Positions 1,486 to 59,975 of a stretch of DNA of 64,000 nucleotides are shown here, piece after piece. Under the pieces are notes generated by a model, which saw only the letters and a program-made list of their open reading frames with translations, was not told where the DNA came from and ran no database searches. Position 1 is the stretch's first letter. The number at the start of each line of letters is the position of its first letter. Position numbers and translations under genes: made by a program. Origin of the DNA: Arenicola marina (lineage: Eukaryota > Annelida > Polychaeta > Arenicolidae); assembly GCA_964019135.1 (NCBI GenBank), contig OZ025261.1:35516820-35580819 (forward strand). Direction: 5' to 3'.

Positions 1486-1764
1486 TCTCACTTGTATGGT
1501 CTTTGTAGAATGTTTCATGGAGCACCAACGTTAACAGTCTTCATGATAAACTGATAACTTAAATCTATTCCCGCTTAAAGTGTGTGAATAATATGTGATG
1601 AAAAGTATAGAAAAAAAGCACAGATATAGATTTATCGCAAATGGGAATGCAAGCTGGCGCACACATATATCATTTCAGCATGAAAATTGCTTCTACTTTC
1701 TGTTGTATTATATGATATAACTTGTAAGCTTATATATCTTTCCTTTTGTAGATCAAGTGTGAAG

Positions 1765-4700
1765 ATGAAGTACGGTTTAGATATTGAGGAGGGACAAGAA
1801 GGAGTTGGAGGCCCGGGAGCCAACGTGGAACAAGCTGCAGCTTCTCAGTCAGGGTCTGGAAACAGCAATTGGGGAGGAGAAAATGAGAAAGATGAGGGTA
1901 CTAGCGATGAGGATGATAACATTGATGAAAGTGAGGGAGAAGAATGCAGTGGAAGTTCAGATGAGACTGATGGTTGGTATAGATTGATATGATACACTGT
2001 GGTGGACAGATGTTTCACTAGAAAATCCAAAAAGGCCACTTGCTTGATGTAAACATTTATGTTTAGAAAAAATATTGACCCAAAAATTTACTTTGTTAAT
2101 TTGTACTCATTGTATAGATCTATATGTTTTTTCACATGTTATGCAAAGTGTTTAAGTGCTGAGATTCACCCATGGCTCTATTTAACTTGGGTTTATCTGT
2201 ACCTCCTATGCTTAGAAACGGATGACGATGACGAGGAGGACGAAGAAGAGGAGTGTGAAAGCGATTCTGATGAAGGACAAGTGTCTGAAGATGGGGTGTC
2301 TGCCAGTCAGTCCCAAGACCTGGACAGCAGCTCCAGTTCAGGAGGAGAGGGGCAGACCGAAACCTGTCCTGTGTGCCTTGCAAAGATCAGAGAACAGGAT
2401 GTTGGCTCCCCAGAAGGTTGCGACCACAACTTTTGTCTGGAGTGTATTGTGGAATGGTCGAAGGTACAGGATATTTGTTTAAGTTGCTATTGTTATGGAA
2501 TATAAACATGCGACCCGGTGGAGACCACATGGACTAATTAAGCAGTTGTAAAATCGTAGATTACCGTCATTTACGTATGTTTTGGAACACCAAAAATGTC
2601 CCTATGTTTTGTAACACCCCCAATTTTGGAAAAAATAATTATTTTTTGTGGCTGTATGTTTTGGAACACCACAGATGGTGGGTAATTTTTTTGTATCAAT
2701 GTTTTAGAACTCCCTAATTTTCCGAAAATAGATCTATTTATTTAAGTCGCGGCCGTGAAGATATAAGACATATAACATTGAAATCGGTCTCAATAGTTTA
2801 TTCACTACAACAACCTTCGATCCAGCACCCTCCCAACTTTTAGGCATCAGTTCCCACGCTTACCGCTCATCCAATATCACTCAAGCTACTCAAATGGGTA
2901 ATATTGTAAAGGAGTTGTGTTCGTTTCGGGGCATATCAAATGTCAGTCAAAACTCGCGGTGGCCACGGTACCCGCGCGTTCATTGTATATATGTCTGGGC
3001 TGCCTGACTGACCGCCTTCCCCCTCCCCCCACCCATGACTCGTGTACATTGTTTATGTCTGGGCTGCCTGACTGACCGCCTTCCCCCCCCCCCACCCATG
3101 ACTCGTGTACATTGTTTATGTCTGGGCTGCCTGACTGCTCTGTCTGCACCAACCTCCACCCATTGCCTCTCCCTGCACCCCCTTCCACCCCCTCCCCCCG
3201 ACTCGCATACATTGTTTTATTTCTGCGCTGCCTGACTGCTCTGTCTGCACCGCCCTCCACCCCTGCCTAGCCATGTGACGCGTATTTCTCCGCTTCTCTT
3301 CTCTCCACCAGAGCTGGTTGACCGACACTAATCTAAGTTTGTGACACCCCCCACCCCTCCCTCTCCTTCTCGACCGGTCCCCTTACCCTCGTGCCAGGCT
3401 TTGTTTGACAGGAAGCAAGGAAGCCAAATACTGTGTGATGACCTTACACCACCCTGCCCCTTACACGCATCCTGTGGTGGCTACGGCTACGGAAGCTTTT
3501 GGGCTGACTGACCGTACAAGCCCCCTAGCCCCCCCCAAAAAAAGTATCAAAGTTTGGAACAGCTGCAAAATTAATTAATTTTTTTGACTATGTTTTGGAA
3601 CACCCAGGTTTGTAATTATTTTTGCGCGTGTTCCAAAACATACGTAAATGACGGTAGTTTCAGATCAGCTACACATTTGTTATGTTACCAGTACTTGGAG
3701 GAGACAATTGCCTTCCGTAATCCGTTAAAAACGGTATAGGCTTGTGTGCGATCAGATGTTATGCGCAAAAGTCAATCTTGCTAAAGAAATTTGATGAGCA
3801 AGATTAGATTTGCGCAGCTGTTCACTCCGACACTCTTTTGACATCTTCTGGTTGTTAATACAAATTCTTGCCAGATGCCTAAAGGTAGTTCCATCTCAAC
3901 TGACCTGGCAGACACATGTTCAACGTTAAGTCTTGTCTACTACTTAAAAGGTAATTGGCATGAGGGTGTTCCCTGCATTAAGCACAATTTAATCTACCAG
4001 AATAATGTGCTTGTATGTCGCTGGATATAGTGATATAAATGGTGCCTGGTCACGTGTAATATTACGTTAAATCAGCTTCCTTGTATTTTCAGAATGTAAA
4101 CACCTGTCCTGTTGACCGGCAAGTTTTCCACTTGATTCTTGCTCGGCACAGCCTTGAGGGTGTTATCTACAAAAAGGTACAGGCCAAGAATATGGCTCCA
4201 GAGATGTTTTGCCTATTACCTGTAATCATGCACTGCAAAGTTATGTCCCTAAACAATATCAAATGCGACACTTCATAGACGATAACATTATGCAAAGATG
4301 TATTCGCAGTTATGTGAAGTAAATAAGTAATTATTACGTTATGGTAGTAATAAATCTATACAAGGGCCTCCAATCAACTAGCGTGGCTTTGAATTTAATA
4401 TTTAAGACTTGCCTTATGCTCTTGATCATATTGTGTTGATCTTACAGACATCATTTACATGTTGTAGATTCCCATTCGGGACCAAGAGTTGCAGCTGGAG
4501 GAAGAAGGCTTTGAGGATCGCACAGACTGTGAAGAGTGTGGTAGAGGGGACAGAGAGGATCGTATGCTTCTCTGTGATAGCTGCAATTTAGGGTCAGTAT
4601 CTAACTTCCCACTTCCTTGGCTATTAATGCTTTACTGATATCCTTTCTCGCAATTAATCTGTAAACGACTAATTGGTGGTGCATTATATATTGTGCATTT

Positions 4701-7700
4701 GCAGACTTTAGATTTAACGTTTTCAAGTACCGGTAAATAGCTCAAATGTGACCTTTCTTCATCTGTGTTTATGGTAGTTGCACTATTTAGGTAGCAGCAT
4801 TTAAATTAAATTGGCAAGACAGGATTCTATATTTTTCTGCTAATAATAGTTTCGCTGTTGGATGCGACCAGGTGACAGTTTGTTGTGCCTGTTGTAGGTA
4901 TCACCTGGAGTGCCTTGACCCACCCCTGGAGAGCGTGCCACGTGGGACCTGGTACTGCCCAGGCTGCGCCAGGACCACCCGTCGTCTCCTGCATCAGGGT
5001 ACACACCTCCACATAGTAACAGTAGCCGTATTCATTGCCTTATTAAGGACGGCCTCTTTCTGTTTCTCGTTCTGTATGTACCCAGAGGCCTCCCTCGTGT
5101 ATTGATTAGCGCACTAGACCCAAGATCAATAGGTCCTTGGTTCGCATCGGGAAAATCTGGGGCATGTTTCATCTTTCATCTTGCCGGGAGAGGTTGCTGA
5201 TATGTACGTATGTCGGTTTCAGAGCCTATGGAAGAGGAGGTTGAGGAGGCGCCCGCCCCGCGCGCCCCCTACCGGGTCCAGAGACAAGTGCCCCGGACGC
5301 CAGTGCGGGAGCGCGTCCTAGCGGCCATCTCCAGGATCCGGGAGGTCCGCAGCAATGGCCGCCGAAGAATCGTCGACTCGGAATCCGAGGTAATGGTCTC
5401 CATTGTGCCTCGTTTTCATAATGAGCCTTCCATGCTTATTAATTTCTGAAGAAATCCAGAAAGAATGTGTCAGGGATTTTTTTTTACTTAGGTTTACATT
5501 CCACTTGTCTGGTGCAAGTTTCGTGCCCGATACAAACGACATTAAGGTTGGAATGAGTCCGGAGTAATCACTGGCAAGAGATGTCGCTGATCGCTGAATC
5601 AGCAGGAAAATGCAATAATTAATATGTATGAGTAGCGTAATATTGACATCGTAGATGTAAATTGTCGTAGAATAATGAAACAGGATAAGATTTATTTTAT
5701 TGGTATCTGAATGTGGTTTTGTGTCGACCAGTTTGAGGTCGATATCGGGTTTCTAGAGGAGTGCGAACCATCGACCTCAGGCGGGCCGTCCACCGCAGCA
5801 AGGTCAAGGCCAACTACTAAACGAAAGAAAACTACTCGGAGACGAAAACGAAAAAGTACGAAACGAAAAACTACCAGAAAGAGTAAGAAACCGAAGACAA
5901 TTACCAGTAGCACGGGAGTCGCCAAGAAAACGACGCGGAAAAGACGGAAGAAGAGGAAGGGGAAAAAGAGAAAGACAAAGAAATCGGTAAGAGAATCGTC
6001 TACCTCCTTTAAGGTCTTGTAAAGTCTGGTTGCTCCATGCAAGACTAGCAACAAACAGTCGGTCTAATCGTAAGGAGAATATCTTGTCCCGTGTGGAACC
6101 TACTGTTTCAAAGTCGCGACGAAGACTTCTTATAATTCTTTTAGGGCACTTTTATGTAATAAGCCTCTCTCAACAATAGGGAATTAGGGTTGGATGATAT
6201 GAAATAAGCCTCTCTCAACAATTAGGGAATTAGGGTTGGGTGAAATGTAATAAGCCTCTCAACAATTAGGGAATTAGGGTTGGGTGAAATGTAATAAGCC
6301 TCTCAACAATTAGGGAATTAGAGTTGGATGATATGTAATACGCCTCTCTCAACAATTAGGGAATTAGAGTTTGGTGACACTTGAAGTTACATTTCAAAGC
6401 CATGGAAAATGTACTCTACAATTTACAATTTAATCTAACGGTTTGTAGATTAACTGTTGTAACCTGGTCATTTTACGTTAACAGTTAAATCTACATATTT
6501 TATCTAAACCGTCTGTTATGTTTATGTGCTTTGAGCCTTGACCTTGAATGTTGATAAAACTCCCAATAACTTAATACTTGCCAGGCGGCGCGGACGAAGC
6601 GGACAACCCCGACCACCATTAAGACCCGCATTGCCGGCAAGCTGGGGATGTCGAGTCCCCCAGTGGGCCGGACGCTGCCGCTGGTGCGTGGGCGTTCGGA
6701 GCGTTCCGTTGACCTTCAGAGGTCAGACGTGGGCATCGCGCCGCTCTCCATACTCGGCGACCGCAACGAGTTGCTCGGCTGGAGGTGAGTACTGTACGCC
6801 ACTTGTTCTTGGCGAGGTTTTTGTATGTACAATATTCTGGGCGAGGTTTCATCTTTCTATATCTGTTATTGTTGTATTATTGTTACCGTGTAGTAGTGAG
6901 CCATGTACGCGTCCTTTAATGTGCCGGTGGTCGCATACACGTTGTTAGGTGGTAGGTTATTGAAGTAGCGGAAAGGTCAATCTGTCATCGAATGCATCAA
7001 ATAATCAGTCCATAATGTACTACTTGAAGGTGGGATTTAAAGTGGCACCTTATTAAATACTGGGCCGCCTTTTCGAGATTACTGATTGGAAGTCGTGGAA
7101 AGTTACTACATCCGTAATGTTAGCAACACGCGTTGTACTTGGAATGTACACCAGTATAATCACAACTTGATTGACAAGTTATAAGTGCGGCTTGCTTGGC
7201 TTTTAGTAACCAGAGTGACGATGAGGAAGTGGCCGTTGGCGGGCACGGGGGGACGCTGATAGCTCGTAGGGCAATCCCGCGATTCGGCCCCGGGATCAGC
7301 AAGACTGGCGTAAACAGCCACTCTCCGGACCCTTCAGCGCAGCGGTAGGTCTGGGCGGCCGTCACAGTAACGTCGACGAAAGTCAAGTTGCGAATGCAAA
7401 AGTGGTTAAGCAATTTAATCGCGTGTGTATTGATGTGTCAACATCGACCTTTCATAGCCTACATTACATTTTACTCGTTAAGTGCAAGTGATGTGTCCCC
7501 GAAAGCTTGATTTACTGTCTTACATTTTGTTGTGTTGCGAACGTACCAGGACGGAGGAGTTGGCTAAGAGCATTTTCCGTAATTCGATGGCCTTCGTTTT
7601 TTTTTGCATGGTCACAACTAACATCTCAGAACGGAGGCGTTGACTGCTTCCATATCCATAGTTTCATGGCCCGTTCCCACTTATCCCCCATTATCGCTCC

Positions 7701-10700
7701 CCAATACGTGTTCTCTTCGCGTTTGTACGTAGTCACACCTAGACGCCTGTTACTCGTGTGAGACCGCTGCCGTGTGGTGCTCAGTCCCGTGCGTCTGGTG
7801 GTTGTAGGTTTCGGGCGGCGTTACCGGACGTGAGGGGTGGGGGGTCGGCGGCCGGGGACCTCCTGGGCAACATCTTGTCAGGCCAGAGTCTCCTGCTCAC
7901 TGAGCCCAAGGACGTCACAATCAACAAGGACGGTGAGTATATCGCGGGAACCCGCCCCTCAAACAGAGGGTCCAGGGCGTGACCTGGAAACGAAGGTTGA
8001 GTATCTCGCTTATTTGTTACGGTACGGAGCTATTTCGAACGTGTTTAAACAAGTTGTGTACTGGAATACGCTATATTGTCAAATACTCATTTGATAATAA
8101 TTTCATCAATTGAACGAAAAGTTTCATGATTTGATAAATGTTTCATGGTTTGGTGAATGGCTAATGGTTTGATGAATGGCTAATGATTCGATAAATGGTT
8201 ATTGAATTAATAATGATTTTGAAAACAAATCTATGGCATTTATACGTGTCCGGTGCGGGGTTCTTACGACAGTGCATTTCCGCCTTTGGCTCCAGGTTCC
8301 CTGCTGTACAAGCAACTGCCAGTCGCAGACAAGTTGATGACTGAGAGCAAACTGATGCGACAGGTTGGTTTCTCTCTGAGCGAGCCTGCGTGGGGCTCCG
8401 GGAGGGGCGCCGGGGACGCGCTCCGTCGCCCCGCCCCCCGCACAGCCAGTCTGGAGCAAGTGGACGGCGAGGACGGAAAACGCGACGACGCGCCCGCCGG
8501 GGAGACGCCCTCGGGCGCCGGAAGTTCCGGGGCGCCGGACGCCGCGGCCGGCGACGCGACGACCTCGGACGCGGACAAATCTGGCGCCGGCGGCGACGGG
8601 GACTGCGCCCTGGGCGGTGGGGCAGCGGTGCCGGTCGCCATGGACGCGGCTAGGTCTGGCGACTCCGGGGCCCGGGGTGACGGCTCACCGCGCGGGACCG
8701 GCGGCCGGGAGGACGCCGAGGACAGTGACGCGGACGACGTGCCCAAGAAGCGGCGGCGACGCTCGGACGCGGAGGGCAATGTCAACAACAGCAACAGTAA
8801 TTCGGCCGGCGGGGGCGGGGACGGGGGTGGGGACAGCGACGAGTACGGCTCGGACCGGAACGGCGGGGACGGCTCTCCGCTGGAAGGCTGCCCGCTGGAA
8901 GGCTCCCCGCTGGAAGGCTCTATCGGCAGCGAGGAGGCTGAGCTGGACGCGGCGATGGACGCCTCTCGCGGGGAGGAGATGTTGGACCACGAGTTGGTGG
9001 TGGACGAACGCGACCAAGTCTTGCCGGAAACGTCTCCCGCGCCGCGTGTTGTGGAGGAGGAGGAGGAGGAGGAGGAGGACGGGGACCCGGATGAGGAGCG
9101 ACGGGGCGGCGGCGGCGGGGACGGCGCGCCGGAGCGGGACAACGACTGCAGCAGCAGCCCTACCGGCGCCGTCCTGGGAGACGTGTCTCCCTTGTCGGAC
9201 TCTGACGGCCCCGGGGACGGCGATGGAGACGGGGACCTGCGTCCCGAGGTGGACACCCCCGGGGACCCCCCGGCCCCTACCCCACCCAATGGTCGCCTCA
9301 CCCTGCAGGAGTCGTTCGGCTTCGACGCGACGCTGGACGAGACGTTAGACGACACGCAGGACTCTGGGGACCTGGCCATAGATGGGCCGGACGGGGACCG
9401 GGAGGAGGAGGAGGAGGGGGAGGGAAGCCAGGCTGGTGACAGGCGAGAGAACGGGGATGGGGAGGAGGAGGAGGAGGAGGGGGATGGGGGTGAGGACGAG
9501 GATGACGACGACATCCCGCCGTCCAATGTGGTCCCCATATCAGAGCTTCCCCGGATACCGAAAGTCCGGCAGCCGGAGGAGTCTTCCGCTGGCGCCATTG
9601 AACTTGCCCTGGCGCCCGAAGCCGTTGTGTCCAACACGGGCGTCCTGGGACGCCTGGACGTCGCGGAGGGCGCCAAGTCGTACCCCAAGTGGGATAAGGG
9701 TGAGAAGCGGGAAAAGGGTCGGGAGGGGCGAGCGGGAGCGGGAGGGGGGAGTGGGAGGGGCGACTCTCAGGACGATGCGGACGGCGAGGAGAGCGTCATT
9801 TCGAGTCGCGACCGCCGCCGACACAAGGACCGACACCGCGACAAGGACCGACGTGACGAGGACGACGCCTCGGTGTCGTCCCGCCACAAGCGCCATAAGC
9901 GTCACAGCCGCTCGCGGTCGCGGGGGAGGTCGAAATCCTCGCGACGGTCGAGATCCCGGTCGAGGGAACGCCGCCGGAGGTCGAGGTCGCGTGAGAGACG
10001 CTCAGACGATAGCCGCCGGCGCCGTGACCGCAGTGACCGCAGCCGGGAACGGCGCCGGCGGTCGCGCTCTCACAGCCCCCGTCGCCATGGCGACCGCGAG
10101 CGCCACCGCGCTTCCGCTGACGAGTACCAAGGGTCGGTGAAGATGTTCAGCCAGTCGTTAAAAGACGCGGCGGAAGCGGAGAGCAACAAACGCTTCCGGC
10201 TCAAGCGCAACTTCTACCAGCAGTACCAGGAGAAGTACGAGAACGACCCGATCTTCGACAAGCCGCCGCCTGACAAGCCGCCCTTCGAGCGGCCGTCGGC
10301 GGCGTCACTCCGCAACGACCAGCGGCGCTCGCCCTCCCCCGAGGAGCCGCAGGAGACACAGATCACCGTCATCGTCTCGGACCGCTACGAGGGCAGTCTA
10401 TCGAGTCGGGCCAAGCCCGCCAAGCAGCCGGAAAAGATTTGCGCCTTCAAGACGCCGGGATTGCTGCCCGAGCGGTCCGACAGGTCAGACCGCTCAGACC
10501 GGTCGGAGAGGTCCGGCAAGTCTGAGCGGCACGAGCGGTCGAGTCGCTCGCACTACGACCCCAAGCGGAACGATCGAAATGACAATGCGCCGGACGCCCC
10601 CTCGGAGGCCGGAGACTCGATCGCGGGGGATTCGGTCATCTCCTTGAGCGAGTCTGAAGCGCCCTCTGTGGGCAGACTGATGGACCCGGCGCTGGGCGAG

Positions 10701-13700
10701 GACAAGGAGTCCGGCCACTTCCGGTCTGACAGGAGCCTCGGCGGGCTTGGGAGCGTGGGCGACGTGCAGTCCCTGCTGGACCGCCAAACCATCTTCAAGG
10801 TGCCCGAGGCGCCCCCACCCCGCATCCGGCCACGTGACCTGACCACCCACCCCCACCTCAACCCCCAGCTGCCCTCCATCGTGCAACTGCCGGTCAGCCC
10901 GGAGAACTCGTCCTACGACCCGTCCGAGCCGACGGAGGCAGGCAGCCCGCCGATGCGGGATCTTTTTGAGCTGCGCCACCCGGCCGACCGCCTCTCGCCC
11001 GCCCCGCTGCGGTCCCCCTTCCACGAGATGGTGCGCGGCCCGCACCGGGGACCTCTGCTGGCAGACCCGCCCGGCGCCGGGGCCGTGGACGCCCTCCGCC
11101 CGCCCTACGTCACCGTCTCCGAGGGCGGCATGCGCCTCAGCACCGTGGTTGGCCCCCACCTGCCGGGCTTCAACCTCGTCCACCCGGGCCACCAGGTGGC
11201 CGCCGTCGCCGCCCGGGGGGTCGGGCGACCCCCACTGCTGATGAACCCGCCCGTGCTGGGCCCCCACCCGCACTCGCACCCGCACCACCACCCGCACGGC
11301 CACCCGCCCATGCGGCTGCTGCGCCCCGGGGGCCCGCACCAGATCAGCTGGCAGCAGATCAACGTCAACCAGCCGCACAACATCCTGCTCCACAACCGCA
11401 TCCCCATCTCCGTGGCGCAGAACGGGCTGCTGCACGCCCACCCCAACGGGCCCGAGGCGGCCCACTTCCAGCCCCCGCCGCCGCCGCGTTTCGAGCCCCC
11501 GCCCCCGCCCCCGAGCGTGCCGGACACCCTGGGCACCCCGCCGCCGCCCCTGCCGCCCAAGGCGCTGGAGGAGATGCAGCAAATATCGCAGCTGCTCAAC
11601 GCGCAGGCGCAGCTAGCGCAGGTGGCGCTCGTCAGTAAGTCGGGGGACATGCGCGCGCCGATGCACCCGCGGACTCACATGACGCTAGCGGGCGGCGGGA
11701 GCGGAGGGTCCCTGTCGGCCAGCAACGCGGTGTCCATGGCGCTGGCCCATGGCACATTCTCGCTGGACGGTCTCTTCAAGGCGCCGCCGCCGCCGCTGCC
11801 GCCGCCCAAGCTCAACGACCGCGTGACGATGGCGCCCTCTTACGACGAGACTATGGAGGTTGTGGACATGGACGTGGCCTCGCCGCTCTCGGATGAGGAC
11901 ATCAAGTTCTCGTTCTCGCCGCCGCCGACCCACGGGGGCCGCGACCTACCGGGCAAGGACAAGCGCGTGAAGCACGTGGAGGACCTGAAGGAGGATGACC
12001 TCACGTCGGCCGAGGACCTTCACAAGCAGGAGAAGGTCAGTCAGACGCCGGCTCACCGGGCGGGCCGCCAAGGTCACGGGTTCGCGCCCTGGCACCTGAA
12101 CCTGGGGCATTTTTCATTCAACCAGGGAAGCTCTAATTTCCCCAATTAAAACTTCAAGAGCCAATTACAATGCGTAGATGTGAACATACGGGTATCTTCG
12201 ATGTACGTGTCCATATGTTGATTTCGGCAAATCGCCCAGTGCGGCGTGCATTTCATTATGTCAGTAACTGAACGACTTTTATTAGCTGTTAATCGTGCAC
12301 TCGTTTCTGTCTTGTTACTTGACACTTTTAATTGGTCTGTCACGTTAGTTGGTGTCTGACGGCAAGGAGTAGTAAATATCTGGTGTTGCGAGGTGTGAGC
12401 GATAAAGGATAAAAAACAATTGGCGTGTGTAGGTCATTACACCTTTCGGTTTGGTGTTTCAGTTTATGAAGAAACTCAACCGGCAGGAGAGGGTGGTGGA
12501 GGAGGTGAAACAGGCCATCAAGCCGCACTACAGCAGGGGCAAGATCGACAAGGAGGAGTACAAGGAAATCATGCGCAAATGCGTCCCCAAAGTAAGTCTG
12601 TTTGAGACGGCGTGGCCCGCGTCCCCAAAGTAAGTCTGTTTGAGACGGCGTGGCCCGCGTCCCCAAAGTAAGTCTGTTTGAGACGGCGTGGCCCGCGTCC
12701 CCGAAGTAAGTCTGTTTGAGACGGCGTGGCCCGCGTCCCCAAAGTAAGTCTGTTTGAGACGGCGTGGCCCGCGTCCCCAAAGTAAGTCTGTTTGAGACGG
12801 CGTGGCCCGCGTCCCCAAAGTAAGTCTGTTTGAGACGGCGTGGCCCGCGTCCCCAAAGTAAGTCTGTTTGAGACGGCGTGGCCCGCGTCCCCAAAGTAAG
12901 TCTGTTTGAGACGGCGTGGCCCGCGTCCCCAAAGTAAGTCTGTTTGAGACGGCGTGGCCCGCGTCCCCAAAGTAAGTCTGTTTGAGACGGCGTGGCCCGC
13001 GTCCCCAAAGTAAGTCTGTTTGAGACGGCGTGGCCCGCGTCCCCGAAGTAAGTCTGTTTGAGACGGCGTGGCCCGCGTCCCCAAAGTAAGTCTGTTTGAG
13101 ACGGCGTGGCCCGCGTCCCCAAAGTAAGTCTGTTTGAGACGGCGTGGCCCGCGTCCCCAAAGTAAGTCTGTTTGAGACGGCGTGGCCCGCGTCCCCAAAG
13201 TAAGTCTGTTTGAGACGGCGTGGCCCGCGTCCCCAAAGTAAGTCTGTTTGAGACGGCGTGGCCCGCGTCCCCAAAGTAAGTCTGTTTGAGACGGCGTGGC
13301 CCGCGTCCCCAAAGTAAGTCTGTTTGAGACGGCGTGGCCCGCGTCCCCAAAGTAAGTCTGTTTGAGACGGCGTGGCCCGCGTCCCCAAAGTAAGTCTGTT
13401 TGAGACGGCGTGGCCCGCGTCCCCAAAGTAAGTCTGTTTGAGACGGCGTGGCCCGCGTCCCCAAAGTAAGTCTGTTTGAGACGACGTGGCCCGCGTCCCC
13501 AAAGTAAGTCTGTTTGAGACGGCGTGGCCCGCGTCCCCAAAGTAAGTCTGTTTGAGACGACGTGGCCCGCGTCCCCAAAGTAAGTCTGTTTGAGACGGCG
13601 TGGCCCGCGTCCCCAAAGTAAGTCTGTTTGAGACGACGTGGCCCGCGTCCCCAAAGTAAGTCTGTTTGAGACGGCGTGGCCCGCGTCCCCAAAGTAAGTT

Positions 13701-14874
13701 TGTTTGAGACGACGTGGCCCGCGTCCCCAAAGTAAGTCTGTTTGAGACGGCGTGGCCCGCGTCCCCAAAGTAAGTGTTTGAGACGGCGTGGCCCGCGTCC
13801 CCAAAGTAAGTCTGTTTGAGACGGCGTGGCCCGCGTCCCCAAAGTAAGTCTGTTTGAGACGGCGTGGCCCGCGTCCCCAAAGTAAGTCTTTGAGACGGCG
13901 TGGCCCGCGTCCCCAAAGTAAGTCTGTTTGAGACGGCGTGGCCCGCGTCCCCAAAGTAAGTCTTTGAGACGGCGTGGCCCGCGTCCCCAAAGTAAGTCTG
14001 TTTGAAACGGCGTGGCCCGCGTCCCCAAAGTAAGTCTGTTTGAGACGGCGTGGCCCGCGTCCCCAAAGTAAGTATTTGAGACGGCGTGGCCCGCGTCCAG
14101 CGCCAAAGTAAGTGTTTAAGACTACATGGCGCGTAATCTCACGTTCGATGGGAGACTCGAACCCGCTGAGTGCGCAGAACGTTGTAATTAAGTCGGTCAC
14201 GTGGTCCACGCCATGCTTCGCCCCTCCCCACTCTCACACACGCTTTCCCTGCGTGTTACTCGGTAAGTGTCCTCCCAGCTAGCCAACGTGGTGGAGAGGT
14301 AACTTACTGGACGTATACTTAACAAGTGGCGGGTTCACCCCCCTCCCTATCTGGGGCCCGTTCATAGCGGTCTAATACACCAATCCGTCACTCGGCCTCT
14401 TCGCAATTTATGGTTTCCACTCGCGATGTTTTATTATCATCTGTGGTTTTGACACGTGGTTGCTATTGGTAACTCGATTGATGGCAACTACATGTGTCAC
14501 TGGACCATGATTAGTCGATAGTCATATGTACTATTATAAACAACACTTAATTACGCTGATGACGTGAAACAAATCTTGTACTTGATGAAAGTTGCTCACG
14601 CCATATTCTCTCTGTGGCCCAGATCTGTCACAGTAAGAGCGGAGACATCAACCCGGAGAAGATCCGTAACTACGTGGAGGCCTACGTGGAGAAGATGCGG
14701 CAGACACGGAAATACGAGTCCAAGAAGGCGGGCGGCCCGGGCCAGAACAAGGGCCAGGCTGGTGCCGGCTCCAGGCCCGGAGCGACAGGGAACCAGCCCG
14801 GGTCAGCGTCCAGAGGTCACAGAGGTCAACGCGCGGGCGGCGGCCAGCGCCCGGCGTCGGCCAGACAGAAATGA
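1765..14874 (+). CDS. PHRF1: PHD and RING finger domain-containing protein 1 (PHRF1)
   Basis: Thirteen coding exons: 1765-1972, 2216-2463, 4093-4176, 4468-4592, 4898-4998, 5223-5389, 5732-5986, 6585-6784, 7207-7344, 7808-7932, 8296-12035, 12463-12591, 14623-14874. They sum to 5772 nt, giving 1923 residues (human about 1650). All introns are GT-AG and the phases agree. An acidic N-terminus leads to a RING finger (C120, C123, C138, H140, C143, C146, C157, D160; the last ligand is Asp, as in human) and a C4HC3 PHD finger (C201 to C245). A basic K/R block lies near 320-375. The family motif [14 protein letters not shown] follows, then SELPRIPK (about 964), an R/S/D-rich stretch (about 1055-1165), proline-rich runs and an SRI-like C-terminus. 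In mammals PHRF1 is a nuclear E3 ligase (TGIF turnover), reads H3K36 methylation and binds the RNA polymerase II CTD. The start is the first Met after an acceptor. The last intron contains the donor minisatellite. Identity is secure; the extreme N-terminus is less so. Confidence 0.93.
2564..3654. mobile_element. TA-flanked MITE (Tc1/mariner-like), 1.09 kb, in PHRF1 intron 2
   Basis: The ends are inverted repeats of about 27 bp: CCGTCATTTACGTATGTTTT at the left and its complement at the right (AAAACATACGTAAATGACGG). Both are flanked by TA, the target duplication typical of Tc1/mariner-class transposons. There is no transposase. The interior contains a tandem array (2985-3255). A diverged relative lies at 315-795. 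Confidence 0.8.
2985..3255. repeat. Tandem repeat, ~64-bp unit, inside the MITE
   Basis: About four imperfect copies of CATTGTTTATGTCTGGGCTG followed by CCTGACTGACCGCC and a C-rich run (CCTTCCCCCTCCCCCC). The array lies wholly inside the 2564-3654 element, so it probably belongs to that transposon rather than to PHRF1. Confidence 0.75.
5085..5195 (+). mobile_element. tRNA-like SINE fragment in PHRF1 intron 5
   Basis: TTGATTAGCGCACTAGACCC followed by CCTTGGTTCGCATCGGG reads like the D-arm/A-box and T-arm/B-box of a tRNA-derived SINE head, followed by an unrelated T-rich tail. It is not a functional tRNA: acceptor-stem pairing is not evident. Confidence 0.5.
6155..6375. repeat. ~47-bp tandem repeat in PHRF1 intron 7
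   Basis: About five copies of GTAATAAGCCTCTCTCAACA followed by ATTAGGGAATTAGGGTTGG. Copies differ by a CT indel and by GGTT/AGTT changes. Each unit carries an AATTAGGG core. It lies in the intron between the K/R-rich exon (to 5986) and the exon starting at 6585. Confidence 0.85.
12581..14113. repeat. 38-bp minisatellite carrying the PHRF1 5' splice site, ~41 copies
   Basis: The unit is GCGTCCCCAAA (last bases of the penultimate PHRF1 exon), then GTAAGT (donor), then CTGTTTGAGACGGCGTGGCC (intron). The first unit is the real exon end and donor at 12591/12592. I count 41 GTAAGT hexamers from 12592 to 14108, spaced 38 bp apart, with a few 36-39 bp units near the distal end. Variants include GACGTGG for GGCGTGG, CCCGAA for CCCCAAA, and missing CT or TG. 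Because 38 is not a multiple of three and the unit lacks stops on the minus strand, all three minus frames stay open. Those long frames are artefacts. Confidence 0.97.
14114..14400. repeat. Possible tRNA-like SINE debris after the minisatellite
   Basis: A minus-strand GGGTTCGAGTCTCCC (B-box-like) at about 14148-14162 and a plus-strand TAGCCAACGTGGTGG ... GCGGGTTCACCCCC at about 14280-14345 look like fragments of tRNA-derived SINE heads in the PHRF1 last intron. Both are degraded and the boundaries are uncertain. Confidence 0.35.
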
Positions 14875-16681
14875 CGCTGTTAGATACCCCGCCTAGGTTG
14901 TTTGTTTGTTTATTTTAACAATGTCACGCCACAAAAGCCAAATCGTTTCGTCGTCGATGCGGATCTTAAGTGATTAAGCGAGTAGTCATGAGTCTTCGTG
15001 TGGCTACAACAAGGTCGTTAAATTATTTTGTCTTCGAACTTCAATAGTAGATTGATTACACAGGAAGTTAGGTATCGAGATGATTGTGTCTGGTATTCGT
15101 ATTGCATAATGCATATCTTGCGAGTGTTGACCTAATGGCCAATATTTTTTTTTATGACAAGATTTGGTTGCATTACAATTATGGCGGTCAATCGTTACCA
15201 CAAATTACCGGTTAGGTTTTGTATGAACCTTCGTGTTCAGAGATTCAATGGAGATGTAGTCTCTGGTTGACAGGTTACTCATTGTTGTAAAATTTCAGGG
15301 AAAATCAGTCCCGAAACGGATGACGTCGAACTAATGTTGAGAAACCGAAATATCAGTAAGAAAAACGTTGCTTCGAAAAGCGACAGTTTGTTGAATTTAG
15401 GACTCAGGAACTGTTTATAGCCCCCTGGCAAGTAATTTTCAACAGCATGTTTTTTTGTGTTTCTATTCAACAATTATTGTGTTAGTCTGAATATTTTAAC
15501 TAGTTTTAGCTTGGACAAGATACGAAAAAAAAAGTGGAATAATTTGTGGGTGTCAAATCTAAACCGCGATTTTGGTAAGAGGTCGTGCTTAAAGGAGAGA
15601 GAAAGGTGGCGGCGCTCAGTTTGCGAATATGTTTTAGGAAAAAGAAATACTCCATGCTCTTGATTGCCATTTAGCAAGCGAACAGTAGGTGAAACCATCT
15701 TGTACCAGTGACCCTTATCCCCCCCCTTGCTTACCTATATTTTGTCTAGCAGACCCGTGTATCGCTGCTTGTAGCTCTTCAATTCCTGAGAATGTGTAGA
15801 CGTTTTACAGGGTGCTTCTTGTATGAAGCCGAGCAATGTGATCCCGGCAATTTTATTGCAGCCAGTTTGATTGTGTCTAATCTTATAAGTGTGTGTGTTG
15901 GAACAAGCTACCTACCCCTCAAATTGAAGTGTTTTTCGTAAATGACGTTTTTCTTAACGGCTTTCTAAATGCACATTTTCTCTTTAAAAGCTGATGTATA
16001 TTAACCATTGTGTTTGTGTTACAAATGTATCATAAAAACTCATTTGTATTTACTTAATCCATTGTAAATTAAAACAAACTTTGCGAAGTCTCTTTTGCCT
16101 CATATTTGGTCGTGACGCGGGCAGGCACAAGAAAGACAAAATACACTAGATTAAAATATGTGGCCGTCTTTATCAAAACTCCGGACCCTACAAACGAGTA
16201 CAGTGTATTACTTACGCCATTTTGCAAATTTCATTCATTACAAGTCGCAACAAACGTGTTTGGAAAACGTAAATCTCCCCTTTCAGTCCTTTCACTGCTT
16301 CACTCATTCACACATTGCCAGATACATGTCGGCAAACGTCAACAACTGCTGTCAACAGCCCTCTGGCGGCGGGATTCAGTAGCTCGAGACTCCTCAAACT
16401 GGCAAGACATTTGCTGATTGAAATAACTCCCAGCGACGCTGTCGTCCAGGGCGTCTTCAGAACAAACGAACACGCCACCGGACATCTTGAAGTGAGTTCA
16501 AACGGAAGTGAGCTCGTTCCGATCACGTGTGAGCTCGTTCCGATCACGTGTGAGCTCGTTCCGATCACGTGGTCAGCCAACGCCCGAGTGGCAGCTCTCC
16601 TCTCGCCTTGGCGCCGCCGAGAATGTAAGAGAATCTACTATATATAGTATATAAGAGAAAGTCTAGTGGCAAGTTGCGCTG
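14875..16681. other. PHRF1/GTF2H1 convergent 3' region
   Basis: This is the space between the two stop codons of convergent genes and should contain both 3' UTRs. An ATTAAA on the plus strand at 16068-16073 is the best candidate poly(A) signal for PHRF1. On the minus strand a TTTATT at about 15851 could serve GTF2H1. Apart from the triple E-box repeat at 16508-16571 I see no other feature. Confidence 0.5.
16508..16571. repeat. Three tandem 21-bp units each with a CACGTG E-box
   Basis: GTGAGCTCGTTCCGATCACG repeats exactly three times (21-bp period). It places CACGTG at 16524, 16545 and 16566 and a SacI-type GAGCTC in each unit. It lies about 110 bp beyond the GTF2H1 stop codon, probably within or just past its 3' UTR. 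Confidence 0.9.
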
Positions 16682-19600
16682 TCAGGACTTCTTCGGTCGC
16701 CGTCTGTTTTGCCACGTCGTGTACTTGGTGAACGCGGCCGACAACATCTCGTCCATGTGACCCAGTAACTGCCGACCAAACAAACGAACGAGATTTACCG
16801 CGAGAGGACCGCTTACAGGACAATAAAACAAGCAAAATCCAACATGGCCGATTGCACACAAATCAAGGTTTCAGCTATTTCTTCTAGTACTTACATTATT
16901 AATAGTAGTTCAAATGCATTGGTATATTCGAGATAAGTTTATTTTTAATTGGAACGCTGCGCATATGAAGTTATTTTTCATAACTTTTGATTTGGATAAA
17001 ATCAGAAATTTGTACTCTAAATAGATCAGTGTATATGGACTACCCGTAACAAGGGTTCTCTAAGTACAAATTACAACAACAAAATCTCCAGTCACTTTTT
17101 AAGACTGGGAGCTCAGATAAATATACAAGAAAAGCGTTTATGATGCGTACATTCAAGTATAACGATAGTGATCTACACCAGTATACACAAATAATAGAAG
17201 CAGATTTTGATCCGAGACAGACCTGGACATTTGCCAAGGGGGATGCGAACCACGTGCCAGCTTGAGCTGGCCCCGTAGAGCAAACTATAGTTTTAACTAA
17301 TGCGCTACCTGCTAGGCTACGGGGTGACCCCAACGCGCTACCTGCTAGGCCACGGGGAGACCCCAACGCGCTACCTGGTACGCCACGGGGTGACCCCAAC
17401 GCGCTACTTGCTAGGCCACGGGGTGACCCCAACACGCTACCTGCTAGGCCACGGGGTGACCCCAACGCGCTACCTGGTACGCCACGGGGTGACCCCAACG
17501 CGCTACTTGCTAGGCCACGGGGTGACCCCAACACGCTACCTGCTAGGCCACGGGGTGACCCAACGCGCTACCTGCTAGGCCACGGGCTGGCCCCAACGCG
17601 CTACCTGGTAGGCCACGGGGCGACCCCAACGCGCTACCTGCTAGGCCACGGGGTGACCCCAACGCGCTACCTGCTAGGCCACGGGGTGACCCCAACACGC
17701 TACCTGCTAGGCCACGGGGTGACCCAACGCGCTACCTGCTAGGCCACGGGCTGGCCCCAACGCGCTACCTGGTAGGCCACGGGGCGACCCCAACGCGCTA
17801 CCTGCTAGGCCACGGGGTGACCCCAACGCGCTACCTGCTAGGCCACGGGGCGACCCCAACGCGCTACCTGCTAGGCCACGGGTCGACCCCAACGCGCTAC
17901 CTGCTAGGCCACGGGGCAACCCCAACGCGCTACCTGCTAGGCCACGGGGTGACCCCAACGCGCTACCTGCTAGACCACGGGGTGACCCCAACGCGCTACC
18001 TGCTAGACCACGGGGAGACCCCAACGCGCTACCTGCTAGGCCACGGGGTGACCCAACGCGCTACCTGCTAGGCCACGGGGTGACCCCAACGCGCTACCTG
18101 CTAGGCCACGGGGAGACCCCAACGCGCTATCTGCTAGGCCACGGGGTGACCCCAACGCGCTACCTGCTAGGCCACGGGGCGACCCCAACGCGCTATCTGC
18201 TAGGCCACGGGGTGACCCCAACGCCCTACCTGCTAGGCAACGGGGTGACCCCAACGCGCTACCTGCTAGGCCACGGGGTGACCCCAACGCGCTACCTGGT
18301 AGGCCACGGGGCGACCCCAACGCGCTACCTGGTAGGCCACGGGGTGACCCCAACACACCCTTCCTGCTAGGCCACGGGGTGACCCCAACGCGCTACCTGC
18401 TAAGCCACGGGGTGACCCCAACACGCTACCTGCTAGGCCACGGGGTGACCCCAACGCGCTACCTGCTAGGCCACGGGGTGACACCAACGCGCTACCTGCT
18501 AGGCCACGGGGTGACCCCAACGCGCTACCTGGTAGGCCACGGGGTGACCCCAACGCGCTACCTGCGTGAGAGGAATATAAAATAAACGTTCACAGTCGCG
18601 GTTAATACAAAAATACCATACAAAAATTACACGTTGAGCCATCAGTAATCTGATAGACCTATCTAGAGGCAAATCATCACACAATATGACGTGCCTCCGA
18701 TCGAGAAGCACTTACATTCAGGTTGTAGTGGTAATTGTGAAGTCTCTCCCGCAGTGGGTTGAGCTTAACCTGCTGGTATCTCTCCAGGTTATTGCGCATT
18801 CTCAGCAACTGTGAGAAACACGTCAAGCGTTTACCCGAGTCACATCCCAGGATTTACAACCGAGTAGACATGCATGATGGCTGGGAACAAGGAACATAGA
18901 ACGGTCGGACCAAAACTATTCCAAATTGTCGCCAAATATCCCTTATGTACACATATAATCTAACGGTATCTTTATTACATTCTCATATTATCTTTAGTTT
19001 ATTGAATACAAGGCGGACTAGTAATTGTCCGTTATAAAGACCTTTTCTTCAAGTTGTTTCGTTGTCGTGGGATAGCAGGCCCAGTAATGCCGTAATAACT
19101 CGCAGAGGGCGCTGTAGTGCTGCTTAAGTTCTCTTTGAGTGTCGGTAGGTATCATTTCTGCGAAGGAAAAACAGCTTCACAATTTCTATAACATTTATAG
19201 ATATAACTTTACCAACGTACATATCATTCATTTTAACACAGCACATAACCCATCGATTTATTTAATTATTTATAGACACCTATATGTTCAAATCATATGT
19301 AAGAGATATAACATGAAATGTACATGTGTAACATAAATATTAATGTAAATGTGTGACATAAATATCAATGGACAAGAGGTTTGTTTCTATCTTCCTTTAG
19401 TCACGCGACTCTTGCATAAGCTATTCATTCTGAATAGGTTGTCTTAAGTTGGACACTTTATTCTGATCAAGTGTCCCGGTAGACAGGAGCCACATCTCCG
19501 GGGGTAAACCCTTACTCTTATATATAAACATGTAATATATATTTATCGTGCACAAACACCGGCCTCACATGCCGCCTGGCCCGGCCCAGTAGAGCACACT

Positions 19601-33143: not shown

Positions 33144-43594
<10,451 letters not shown>

Positions 43595-56097: not shown

Positions 56098-59000
56098 GAT
56101 CCCACGGAAATAAACATACAGGCTGCATGATCCCATGGAAATAAACATACAGGCTGCATGATCCCATGGAAATAAACATACAGGCTGCATGATCCCATGG
56201 AAATAAACATACAGGCTGCATGATCCCACGGAAAAAAACATACAAGCTGCATGATCCCATGGAAATAAACATACAGGCTGCATGATCCCACGGAAATAAA
56301 CATACAGGCTGCATGATCCCATGGAAATAAACATACAGGCTGCATGATCCCATGGAAATAAACATACAGGCTGCATGATCCCATGGAAATAAACATACAG
56401 GCTGCATGATCCCACGGAAATAAACATACAGGCTGCATGATCCCATGGAAATAAACATACAGGCTGCATGATCCCATGGAAATAAACATACAGGCTGCAT
56501 GATCCCACGGAAATAAACATACAGGCTGCATGATCCCATGGAAATAAACATACAGGCTGCATGATCCCATGGAAATAAACATACAGGCTGCATGATCCCA
56601 CGGAAATAAACATACAGGCTGCATGATCCCATGGAAATAAACATACAGGCTGCATGATCCCACGGAAATAAACATACAGGCTGCATGATCCCATGGAAAT
56701 AAACATACAGGCTGCATGATCCCATGGAAATAAACATACAGGCTGCATGATCCCATGGAAATAAACATACAGGCTGCATGATCCCATGGAAATAAACATA
56801 CAGGCTGCATGATCCCACGGCAATAAACATACAGGCTGCATGATCCCATGGAAATAAACATACATGCTGCATGATCCCACGGAAATAAACATACAGGCTG
56901 CATGATCCCACGGAAATAAACATACAGGCTGCATGATCCCACGGAAATAAACATACAGGCTGCATGATCCCACGGAAATAAACATACAGGCTGCATGATC
57001 CCACGGAAATAAACATACAGGCTGCATGATCCCACGGAAATAAACATACAGGCTGCATGATCCCACGGAAATAAACATACAGGCTGCATGATCCCACGGA
57101 AATAAACATACAGGCTGCATGATCCCACGGCAATAAACATACAGGCTGCATGATCCCACGGAAATAAACATACAGGCTGCATGATCCCACGGAAATAAAC
57201 ATACAGGCTGCATGATCCCACGGAAATAAACATACAGGCTGCATGATCCCACGGAAATAAACATACAGGCTGCATGATCCCACGGAAATAAACATACAGG
57301 CTGCATGATCCCATGGAAATAAACATACAGGCTGCATGATCCCACGGCAATAAACATACAGGCTGCATGATCCCACGGAAATAAACATACAGGCTGCATG
57401 ATCCCACGGAAATAAACATACAGGCTGCATGATCCCACGGAAATAAACATACAGGCTGCATGATCCCACGGAAATAAACATACAGGCTGCATGATCCCAC
57501 GGAAATAAACATACAGGCTGCATGATCCCATGGAAATAAACATACAGGCTGCATGATCCCACGGAAATAAACATACAGGCTGCATGATCCCACGGAAATA
57601 AACATACAGGCTGCATGATCCCACGGAAATAAACATACAGGCTGCATGATCCCACGGAAATAAACATACAGGCTGCATGATCCCACGGAAATAAACATAC
57701 AGGCTGCATGATCCCATGGAAATAAACATAGAGGCTGCATGATCCCATTGAAATAAACATACAGGCTGCATGATCCCACGGCAATAAACATACAGGCTGC
57801 ATGATCCCATGGAAATAAACATACAGGCTGCATGATCCCATGGAAATAAACATACAGACTGCATGACCCCACGGAAATAAACATACAGGCTGCATGATCC
57901 CATGGAAATAAACATACAGACTGCATGACCCCACGGAAATAAACATACAGGCTGCATGATCCCATGGAAATAAACATACAGGCTGCATGATCCCATGGAA
58001 ATAAACATACAGGCTGCATGATCCCATGGAAATAAACATACAGGCTGCATGATCCCATGGAAATAAACATACAGGCTGCATGATCCCATGGAAATAAACA
58101 TACAGGCTGCATGATCCCACGGCAATAAACATACAGGCTGCATGATCCCATGGAAATAAACATACAGGCTGCATGATCCCATGGAAATAAACATACAGGC
58201 TGCATGATCCCATGGAAATAAACATACAGGCTGCATGATCCCATGGAAATAAACATACAGACTGCATGATCCCACGGAAATAAACATACAGGCTGCATGA
58301 TCCCATGGAAATAAACATACAGGCTGCATGATCCCACGGAAATAAACATACAGGCTGCATGATCCCACGGAAATAAACATACAGGCTGCATGATCCCACG
58401 GCAATAAACATACAGGCTGCATGATCCCATGGAAATAAACATACAGGCTGCATGATCCCATGGAAATAAACATACAGACTGCATGACCCCACGGAAATAA
58501 ACATACAGGCTGCATGATCCCATGGAAATAAACATACAGACTGCATGACCCCACGGAAATAAACATACAGGCTGCATGATCCCATGGAAATAAACATACA
58601 GGCTGCATGATCCCATGGAAATAAACATACAGGCTGCATGATCCCATGGAAATAAACATACAGGCTGCATGATCCCATGGAAATAAACATACAGGCTGCA
58701 TGATCCCATGGAAATAAACATACAGGCTGCATGATCCCACGGCAATAAACATACAGGCTGCATGATCCCATGGAAATAAACATACAGGCTGCATGATCCC
58801 ATGGAAATAAACATACAGGCTGCATGATCCCATGGAAATAAACATACAGGCTGCATGATCCCATGGAAATAAACATACAGACTGCATGACCCCACGGAAA
58901 TAAACATACAGGCTGCATGATCCCACGGAAATAAACATACAGGCTGCATGATCCCACGGAAGTAAACATACAGGCTGCATGATCCCACGGAAATAAACAT

Positions 59001-59975
59001 ACAGGCTGCATGATCCCACGGAAATAAACATACAGGCTGCATGATCCCATGGAAATAAACGTACAGGCTGCATGATCCCATGGAAATAAACATACAGGCT
59101 GCATGATCCCATGGAAATAAACATACAGGCTGCATGATCCCATGGAAATAAACATACAGGCTGCATGATCCCACGGAAATAAACATACAGGCTGCATGAT
59201 CCCACGGAAATAAACATACAGGTTGCATGATCCCACGGAAATAAACATACAGGCTGCATGATCCCACGGAAATAAACATACAGACTGCATGATCCCACGG
59301 AAATAAACATACAGGCTGCATGATCCCACGGAAATAAACATACAGGCTGCATGATCCCACGGAAATAAACATACAGGCTGCATGATCCCACGGAAATAAA
59401 CATACAGGCTGCATGATCCCACGGAAGTAAACATACAGGCTGCATGATCCCACGGAAATAAACATACAGGCTGCATGATCCCACGGAAATAAACATACAG
59501 GCTGCATGATCCCACGGAAATAAACATACAGGCTGCATGATCCCACGGAAATAAACATACAGGCTGCATGATCCCACGGAAATAAACATACAGGCTGCAT
59601 GATCCCACGGAAATAAACATACAGGCTGCATGATCCCACGGAAATAAACATACAGGCTGCATGATCCCACGGAAATAAACATACAGGCTGCATGATCCCA
59701 CGGAAATAAACATACAGGCTGCATGATCCCACGGAAATAAACATACAGGCTGCATGATCCCACGGAAATAAACATACAGGCTGCATGATCCCACGGAAAT
59801 AAACATACAGGCTGCATGATCCCACGGAAATAAACATACAGGCTGCATGATCCCACGGAAATAAACATACAGGCTGCATGATCCCACGGAAATAAACATA
59901 CAGGCTGCATGATCCCACGGAAATAAACATACAGGCTGCATGATCCCACGGAAATAAACATACAGGCTGCATGAT
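56098..59975. repeat. 31-bp satellite array, ~125 copies, 3.9 kb
   Basis: Unit on the plus strand: GATCCCACGGAAATAAACAT then ACAGGCTGCAT. The span divided by 31 gives about 125 copies with almost no indels. The main variants are CCCACGG/CCCATGG, GGCAATAAAC (loses one A), CAGACTGCATGACCCC and GGAAGTAAAC. Most units contain AATAAA on the plus strand and TGTTTAT on the minus strand. A 31-bp unit with no stop on the minus strand leaves all three minus frames open for over 1300 codons; these are not genes. Confidence 0.98.
57781..59010. repeat. 620-bp higher-order duplication within the 31-bp satellite
   Basis: The rare GGCAATAAAC variant occurs at 57781, 58122, 58401 and 58742, spaced 341, 279 and 341 bp (11, 9 and 11 units). 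The intervening order of ACGG, ATGG and CAGACTGCATGACCCC variants repeats as well, so a block of 20 units (620 bp) was duplicated in tandem. Confidence 0.8.

Follow-up and report, generated by a model that had tools for sequence, protein, structure and literature searches.

How does a gene come to carry 41 successive copies of one of its own 5' splice sites, and does it matter to the gene which of them is used? The question is raised by PHRF1 of the annelid Arenicola marina. The window, i.e. the whole stretch of DNA that was analysed, comprises 64,000 nucleotides (contig OZ025261.1, positions 35,516,820 to 35,580,819; part of contig C14 in the numbering used below) of an 867-Mb genome. PHRF1 lies on its plus strand, and the donor of the penultimate coding exon of this gene is part of a long minisatellite that repeats it in every unit.

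A minisatellite across the donor of the penultimate PHRF1 exon

The array occupies positions 12581-14098 of the plus strand, where Tandem Repeats Finder (TRF) reports a period of 38, 40.2 copies, 97% matches and a score of 2917; a table of the units likewise gives about 40 copies. Each 38-bp unit consists of the last 11 bases of the exon (GCGTCCCCAAA, at 12581-12591 the 5' part of the first unit), the donor GTAAGT and 21 intron bases, which is the composition given in the original prediction. An exact count also bore out its number of donors: every unit contributes one exact GTAAGT, which makes 41 within 12592-14113 (the first starts at 12592, the last at 14108), at a spacing of 38 bp in all but four intervals, of which three measure 36 bp and the fourth 40 bp. 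Most of them are indeed preceded by CCCCAAA (38 of 41; two have CCCCGAA and one CGCCAAA). The first GTAAGT (12592-12597) is the natural donor of the exon, and the inclusion of both this donor and the exon end in the unit supports the earlier proposal that the array has grown over a functional splice site. This structure and its position at the exon end are direct observations. Units 1-23 equal the consensus except for an A-to-G change in units 4 and 13. The remaining variants are confined to units 24-41, at the 3' end; units 24-30 alternate between G and A, three units have 36 bp, and one spacing is 40 bp. The 41st and last unit (14097-14134) is degenerate outside its donor, and its intron part runs into GCGT; it probably lies near the original start of the intron. 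On the opposite strand, the array region (12340-14115, minus strand) is open in all three frames, for up to 591 codons. These frames are a by-product of the stop-free unit and present no gene.

Exon borders of PHRF1 were taken from the sequence alone and are thus predicted. Exons for the RING and PHD fingers lie upstream of the array; the exon holding most of the RING finger was placed at 2217-2463 (plus strand; its 5' end is approximate and set by eye), and the peptide joined from it and three further exons matches the Pfam families zf-RING_2 (1.6e-10) and PHD (3.3e-12). The long open frame of the gene, taken from the list of open reading frames, covers 8223-12149. The penultimate coding exon (12463-12591, plus strand) has 129 nt, or 43 codons, and its C-terminal end is EIMRKCVPK. 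Across an intron of 2031 nt it joins in frame to the last coding exon (14623-14874, plus strand; 83 codons plus stop), which was taken from the same list. The joined C-terminal peptide matches SCAF11-like_C (PF23030, 4.9e-13) and SRI (PF08236, 5.4e-6), both above the curated cut-offs. A search of the assembly gave one genomic location each for the exon that flanks the array, for the array itself and for the C-terminal exons; the search passes over very common words, so that a single location is no proof of uniqueness.

The consequences of donor choice follow directly from translation of the predicted joins, and the arithmetic of the original prediction is correct. Donor 1 is the sole one that yields the full C-terminus, reading all 83 residues of the last exon. 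With donor 2 the exon is 38 nt longer and the frame is shifted; the shifted frame stays open beyond the normal stop and closes at 14896. With donors 3-41, translation continues for 13 codons beyond the exon and stops at the TAA (12631-12633) within the second GTAAGT; 6 of these 39 joins were printed, and the stop lies ahead of all 39. This stop precedes the junction by 34 nt if donor 3 is used and by 72 nt if donor 4 is. Nonsense-mediated decay usually follows a 50-55-nt rule; since 72 nt passes this threshold, decay of the mRNA is likely from donor 4 onward. The exon would also grow with donor number: it has 129 nt with donor 1, 281 nt with donor 5 and 1645 nt with donor 41. Under exon definition the first few donors should therefore be favoured. 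The donor nearest the exon, donor 1, is probably the one used, since the normal exon length of 129 nt follows from its use. Occasional splicing from donor 2 would leave the protein with a frameshifted tail; from later donors it would yield a truncated protein.

Arrays of the same design at other genes

The genome was scanned for pairs of donor-like motifs, with reversed motifs as controls. For pairs of AAGGTAAGT spaced 39-43 bp (gap 30-34) there were 104 matches, compared with 18 when the motif was reversed; a wider scan with CAGGTAAGT (gap 15-45) yielded 2603 against 829, and one with CAGGTGAGT (gap 28-36) 1071 against 406. An acceptor-like motif showed no excess over its reverse (1917 vs 1914). 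The surroundings of 15 places among the matches listed were inspected, others, such as single pairs on C10, C13 and C20, being left aside. With PHRF1 included, 7 of the 16 inspected arrays start at an apparent exon end (6 of the 15 further ones); these counterparts, too, are direct observations.

Clear homology identifies three of the six further anchoring exons. The exon at L052 ends in WCDKIQ and belongs to ALDH1L1 (Pfam Aldedh, 7.1e-8; PDB, 3.9e-26, one residue having been added by us); the one at L041 encodes a peptide-receptor-like seven-transmembrane segment (7tm_1, 6.4e-14; the best PDB matches name tachykinin and NPY receptors); and the one at L048 is PTPN23-like (PDB, 8.5e-10; Pfam ALIX domain at 29.4 bits, slightly below the cut-off of 30.8). 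At L045 a kringle-like exon is weakly indicated (20.6 bits, cut-off 34.3), and the apparent exons at L051 and L055 were recognized by eye alone, with no convincing family match. For the other nine (L042, L043, L044, L046, L047, L049, L050, L053 and L054), either no clear exon was seen or the array starts outside the inspected sequence. In six of the seven anchored arrays, between 11 and 31 bases of the unit come from the exon; for L051, whose first unit has a different length, the script returned 0.

The ALDH1L1 array (C1:605781-612276, starting in L052) has 39 bp per unit, with matches spanning about 6.5 kb. The residues WCDKIQ are part of the repeat and align to solved 10-formyltetrahydrofolate dehydrogenase (ALDH1L1). 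Because the repeated exon bases thus encode residues that align to a known enzyme structure, the exon predates the array. The 39-bp period keeps the frame, and the 80 codons that were read contain no stop; skipping of donors would insert blocks of 13 residues. A further Aldedh match was found by the family scan downstream of this array on the same strand (C1:647270).

Several other arrays deserve mention. L045 and L046 are related 42-bp donor arrays on C14, about 90 kb apart; their unit length preserves the frame, yet the copy directly after the exon contains a stop. At C1:52043620-52045891, units of about 29 bp carry TTTTACAG followed immediately by GTACGT in most units listed, an acceptor and a donor adjacent to each other, like a row of recursive splice sites. 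A 44-bp array at C1:22498694-22505545 extends over at least 6.9 kb and contains many copies of CAGGTGAGT.

The excess over reversed motifs might be taken as a sign that donors are special targets of array formation. Preferential seeding is not established by it, however, since matches within one array are not independent, real donors raise the base frequency of the motif, and the places compared are those among the matches listed. All but one of the CAGGTGAGT matches listed fall within a single array. Among the matches listed for C1:1-39.5 Mb, arrays of at least three units, counted by eye, number four for donors and one for the control, and this sole control array itself carries GGTAAGA. It is conceivable, and offered here tentatively, that donor-seeded minisatellites form a recurrent class across unrelated genes of this genome, some with very many donors, and that donors are hot or specially tolerated seeds. 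Introns would then become longer through such arrays, isoforms would leak to an extent set by copy number, and new introns could arise from the repeats.

Within the window, tandem repeats with a period of at least 10 and at least three copies cover 8575 of the 64000 bases. Two more long minisatellites lie at 17302-18565 (33 bp x 38) and 56098-59975 (31 bp x 125). An open frame with 10-residue repeats overlies a 30-bp tandem repeat at 36707-37183 (minus strand), and a single open frame at 60841-62076 (minus strand) encodes an MGAT4-like glycosyltransferase (Pfam MGAT4_cons, 9.5e-42).

Origin of the array and its possible effect on PHRF1

To judge from its sequence, the array most likely began as a tandem duplication over the functional donor. 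The last unit reads CGCCAAAGTAAGTGTTTAAGACTACATGGC, then GCGT, and the repeated part of the exon likewise starts with GCGT. We infer that the duplication across the donor probably occurred via slippage or end-joining at the GCGT common to exon and intron: duplication between these short repeats would have produced the first two units, and unequal exchange would then have expanded them to about 40 copies with a donor in every copy. The polarity of variants, with homogeneous units by the exon and degenerate ones at the 3' end, suggests that the 3' copies are older and that those beside the exon were recently homogenised. The same reading of the edges fits the L048 array, which has AAAT at both; in the L041, L045 and L051 arrays, inspected alongside it, the edge was not distinct enough for such a reading. 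Recurrence of the same exon-plus-donor design at other genes of the genome argues for a general mutational process behind donor-seeded arrays.

Array edges can move, and an intronic satellite might instead have spread leftwards into the exon without the exon being its seed. Nothing supports this course directly, and we consider it very improbable: the exon part of the unit encodes VPK, which stands ahead of the Pfam-supported ICHSKSG; all 39 matches to the unit lie within the PHRF1 array and its exon, in a genome search that skips very common words; and in the parallel ALDH1L1 array the repeated exon bases also encode residues that align to the solved enzyme. Assemblies do err at tandem arrays, yet an assembly artefact is hardly credible at PHRF1, where the internal variants are ordered (the alternating units 24-30, the three 36-bp units, the degenerate last unit) and further arrays of this kind exist in the same genome. 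The remaining alternatives concern function. The original prediction had offered the array as a possible sink for U1 small nuclear ribonucleoprotein (snRNP), in which 41 donors would load U1 onto the intron and block premature polyadenylation. GTAAGT pairs with the 5' end of U1 over six bases, and the 41 sites, with a U1 duplex energy of -5.6 kcal/mol, come near the -6.2 obtained for each of two further donors of PHRF1. Position -1 of the repeated donor is an A, however, and the energy of this donor falls well short of the CAGGTAAGTAT reference (-15.0). A motif search found neither AATAAA nor ATTAAA in the 2031-nt intron; the only AATAAA within 1700-15500 is at 4349 (ATTAAA was searched in the intron alone). 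As the intron thus lacks a canonical poly(A) signal on which U1 could act, this proposal is weakened; we rejected telescripting on the same ground and give a U1 sink very little credence.

We regard it as probable that the array is tolerated and near-neutral, a product of mutational growth with a small leak in splicing. Several points weigh against this. Donor use in PHRF1, that of donor 1 included, is predicted only. All 41 donors are intact. Moreover, the closest case with RNA data, human ABCA7, is not silent. According to the available excerpts of PMC5954066, ABCA7 has a 25-bp variable number tandem repeat (VNTR) in intron 18, with the donor of exon 18 as its first two bases, and four forms occur in its RNA: the canonical one, one that uses a cryptic exon 18 acceptor, one that retains precisely one unit and one that skips exon 19. 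Expression falls with array length and, of the alternative forms, only exon 19 skipping rises; in one brain region the alternative forms taken together outnumbered the canonical form in 90% of cases. It is thus a precedent for an effect of a donor array on expression and splicing. The same data favour a splicing rheostat, in which copy number would tune the share of PHRF1 transcripts with the full SRI-like C-terminus through competition of donors and decay of the rest: donor choice does set full length, frameshift or truncation, alternative ABCA7 transcripts can outnumber the canonical one in brain, and a review links more repeats with lower CBS activity (PMC5188458, in excerpt). On the other hand, retention of one unit, the sole use of a later donor that the excerpts of PMC5954066 name, keeps an unchanged share as the VNTR lengthens, and ABCA7-like skipping is hardly an option for PHRF1, because the next exon is the last one. 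A rheostat seems unlikely to us.

Variation within the donors bears on the near-neutral reading as well. In the seven anchored arrays pooled, GTAAGT is off consensus at 21 of 918 sites, against 264 of 5313 in the rest of the unit. This could reflect selection and would then count against near-neutrality. Three other arrays pooled (L044, L046 and L047) go in the same direction, with 27/630 in GTAAGT vs 244/3542 elsewhere, and GTAAGT is the more variable part in 3 of the 10 arrays (L045, L046 and L051). The count covers these ten arrays, with L042, L043, L049, L050, L053 and L054 left aside and L052 represented by its first 736 bases. The PHRF1 array taken by itself shows little difference (2/240 vs 15/1286), and its two GTAAGT deviations stem from the placement of deletions in the alignment, because all 41 hexamers are exact. 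Selection on the donors was rejected as evidence: anchored and other arrays share the trend, three arrays reverse it, and the arrays were found via intact donors in the first place.

Comparison with known systems

In its structure the PHRF1 array is a mirage, as exon-intron-boundary tandem repeats of lancelets have been called: a tandem, minisatellite-like repeat whose unit lies across the boundary and contains a splice signal. Lancelet mirages are described, in the parts of PMC3087553 and PMC3902484 consulted, from Adh3, the globins BflGb6 and BflGb9, troponin C and PGBD5; they reportedly leave regular splicing undisturbed, are unstable in length and have been proposed as a source of new introns. 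Common to both are the minisatellite-like duplication of the boundary and a splice signal in many units (Adh3 units have 10-72 bp), as well as recurrence at several genes of one genome, which is not a structural trait. The lancelet cases differ in including acceptor boundaries, globin units of 150-160 bp and RT-PCR data, whereas PHRF1 was read from its DNA; two BflGb6 haplotypes have 6 and 3 copies, compared with 41 here.

The host differs as well. The name mirage originates from cephalochordates, another non-structural trait, and the mitochondrial gene order of the present genome is that of an annelid. A lancelet host had been considered first; a search for the GFP family gave no match, but its controls gave none either, so that this result carries no weight. 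Of contig C762, the mitochondrial one, 15,000 of 15,942 bp were read; the genes found there are all on one strand, in the order nad4L-nad4, tRNA-Val at the place expected for the rRNAs, nad1-nad3-nad2-cox1-cox2-cox3-nad6-cob-atp6, a gap of about 1.1 kb and nad5. Ten frames were called by Pfam (nad6 below the cut-off), cox1 by a separate check and cox2 by eye; rRNAs and atp8 were not searched for. This order agrees with the annelid order given in the excerpts of PMC2639372 and PMC9957428.

Human donor VNTRs provide the second comparison, and the PHRF1 array is of their type in that the natural donor is included and repeated. As in PHRF1, the ABCA7 array starts at a functional donor and repeats it, and retention of one unit leads to a frameshift and premature stop. 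In contrast, the ABCA7 unit starts at the donor GT and is intronic, whereas that of PHRF1 includes 11 exon bases; ABCA7 alleles are polymorphic with 12 to 427 units, and the next exon there can be skipped. The human CBS gene carries a 31-bp VNTR, c.1444_1467+7(16_21) (PMC2630376; also PMC5188458 and PMC1395315, all in excerpt). By our reading of this name, its unit consists of 24 exon and 7 intron bases, so that the donor would recur in every one of the 16-21 units, as at PHRF1. The intron share is smaller, however, and the repeat is polymorphic in people, the link with lower enzyme activity having been mentioned above. Human duplicated genes also have tandem repeats at exon-intron boundaries (PMC2812944, in excerpt); these are boundary minisatellites that alter splicing, with a mean unit of 30 bp, but they were found by comparison of paralogues in segmental duplications and average about four units. 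Among annelids, earthworm metallothionein genes have minisatellites in their first intron, although no repeats spanning a splice site are reported in the parts of PMC12783039 consulted.

Dozens of near-identical donors in one intron present a natural test of how a 5' splice site is chosen when local sequence cannot decide. As the same design occurs in lancelets, humans and several genes of an annelid genome, donor-spanning minisatellites may be a common origin of variation in splicing and of change in introns, and one that is too seldom annotated. To call the array the most unusual structure of the window, as had been done, is therefore too strong. Its recurrence in an annelid genome is without a published precedent that we could find, for an exon-intron-boundary array in an annelid or for several in one annelid genome, in a literature search limited to partial lists and excerpts; the PHRF1 array itself belongs to a kind known from lancelets and humans.

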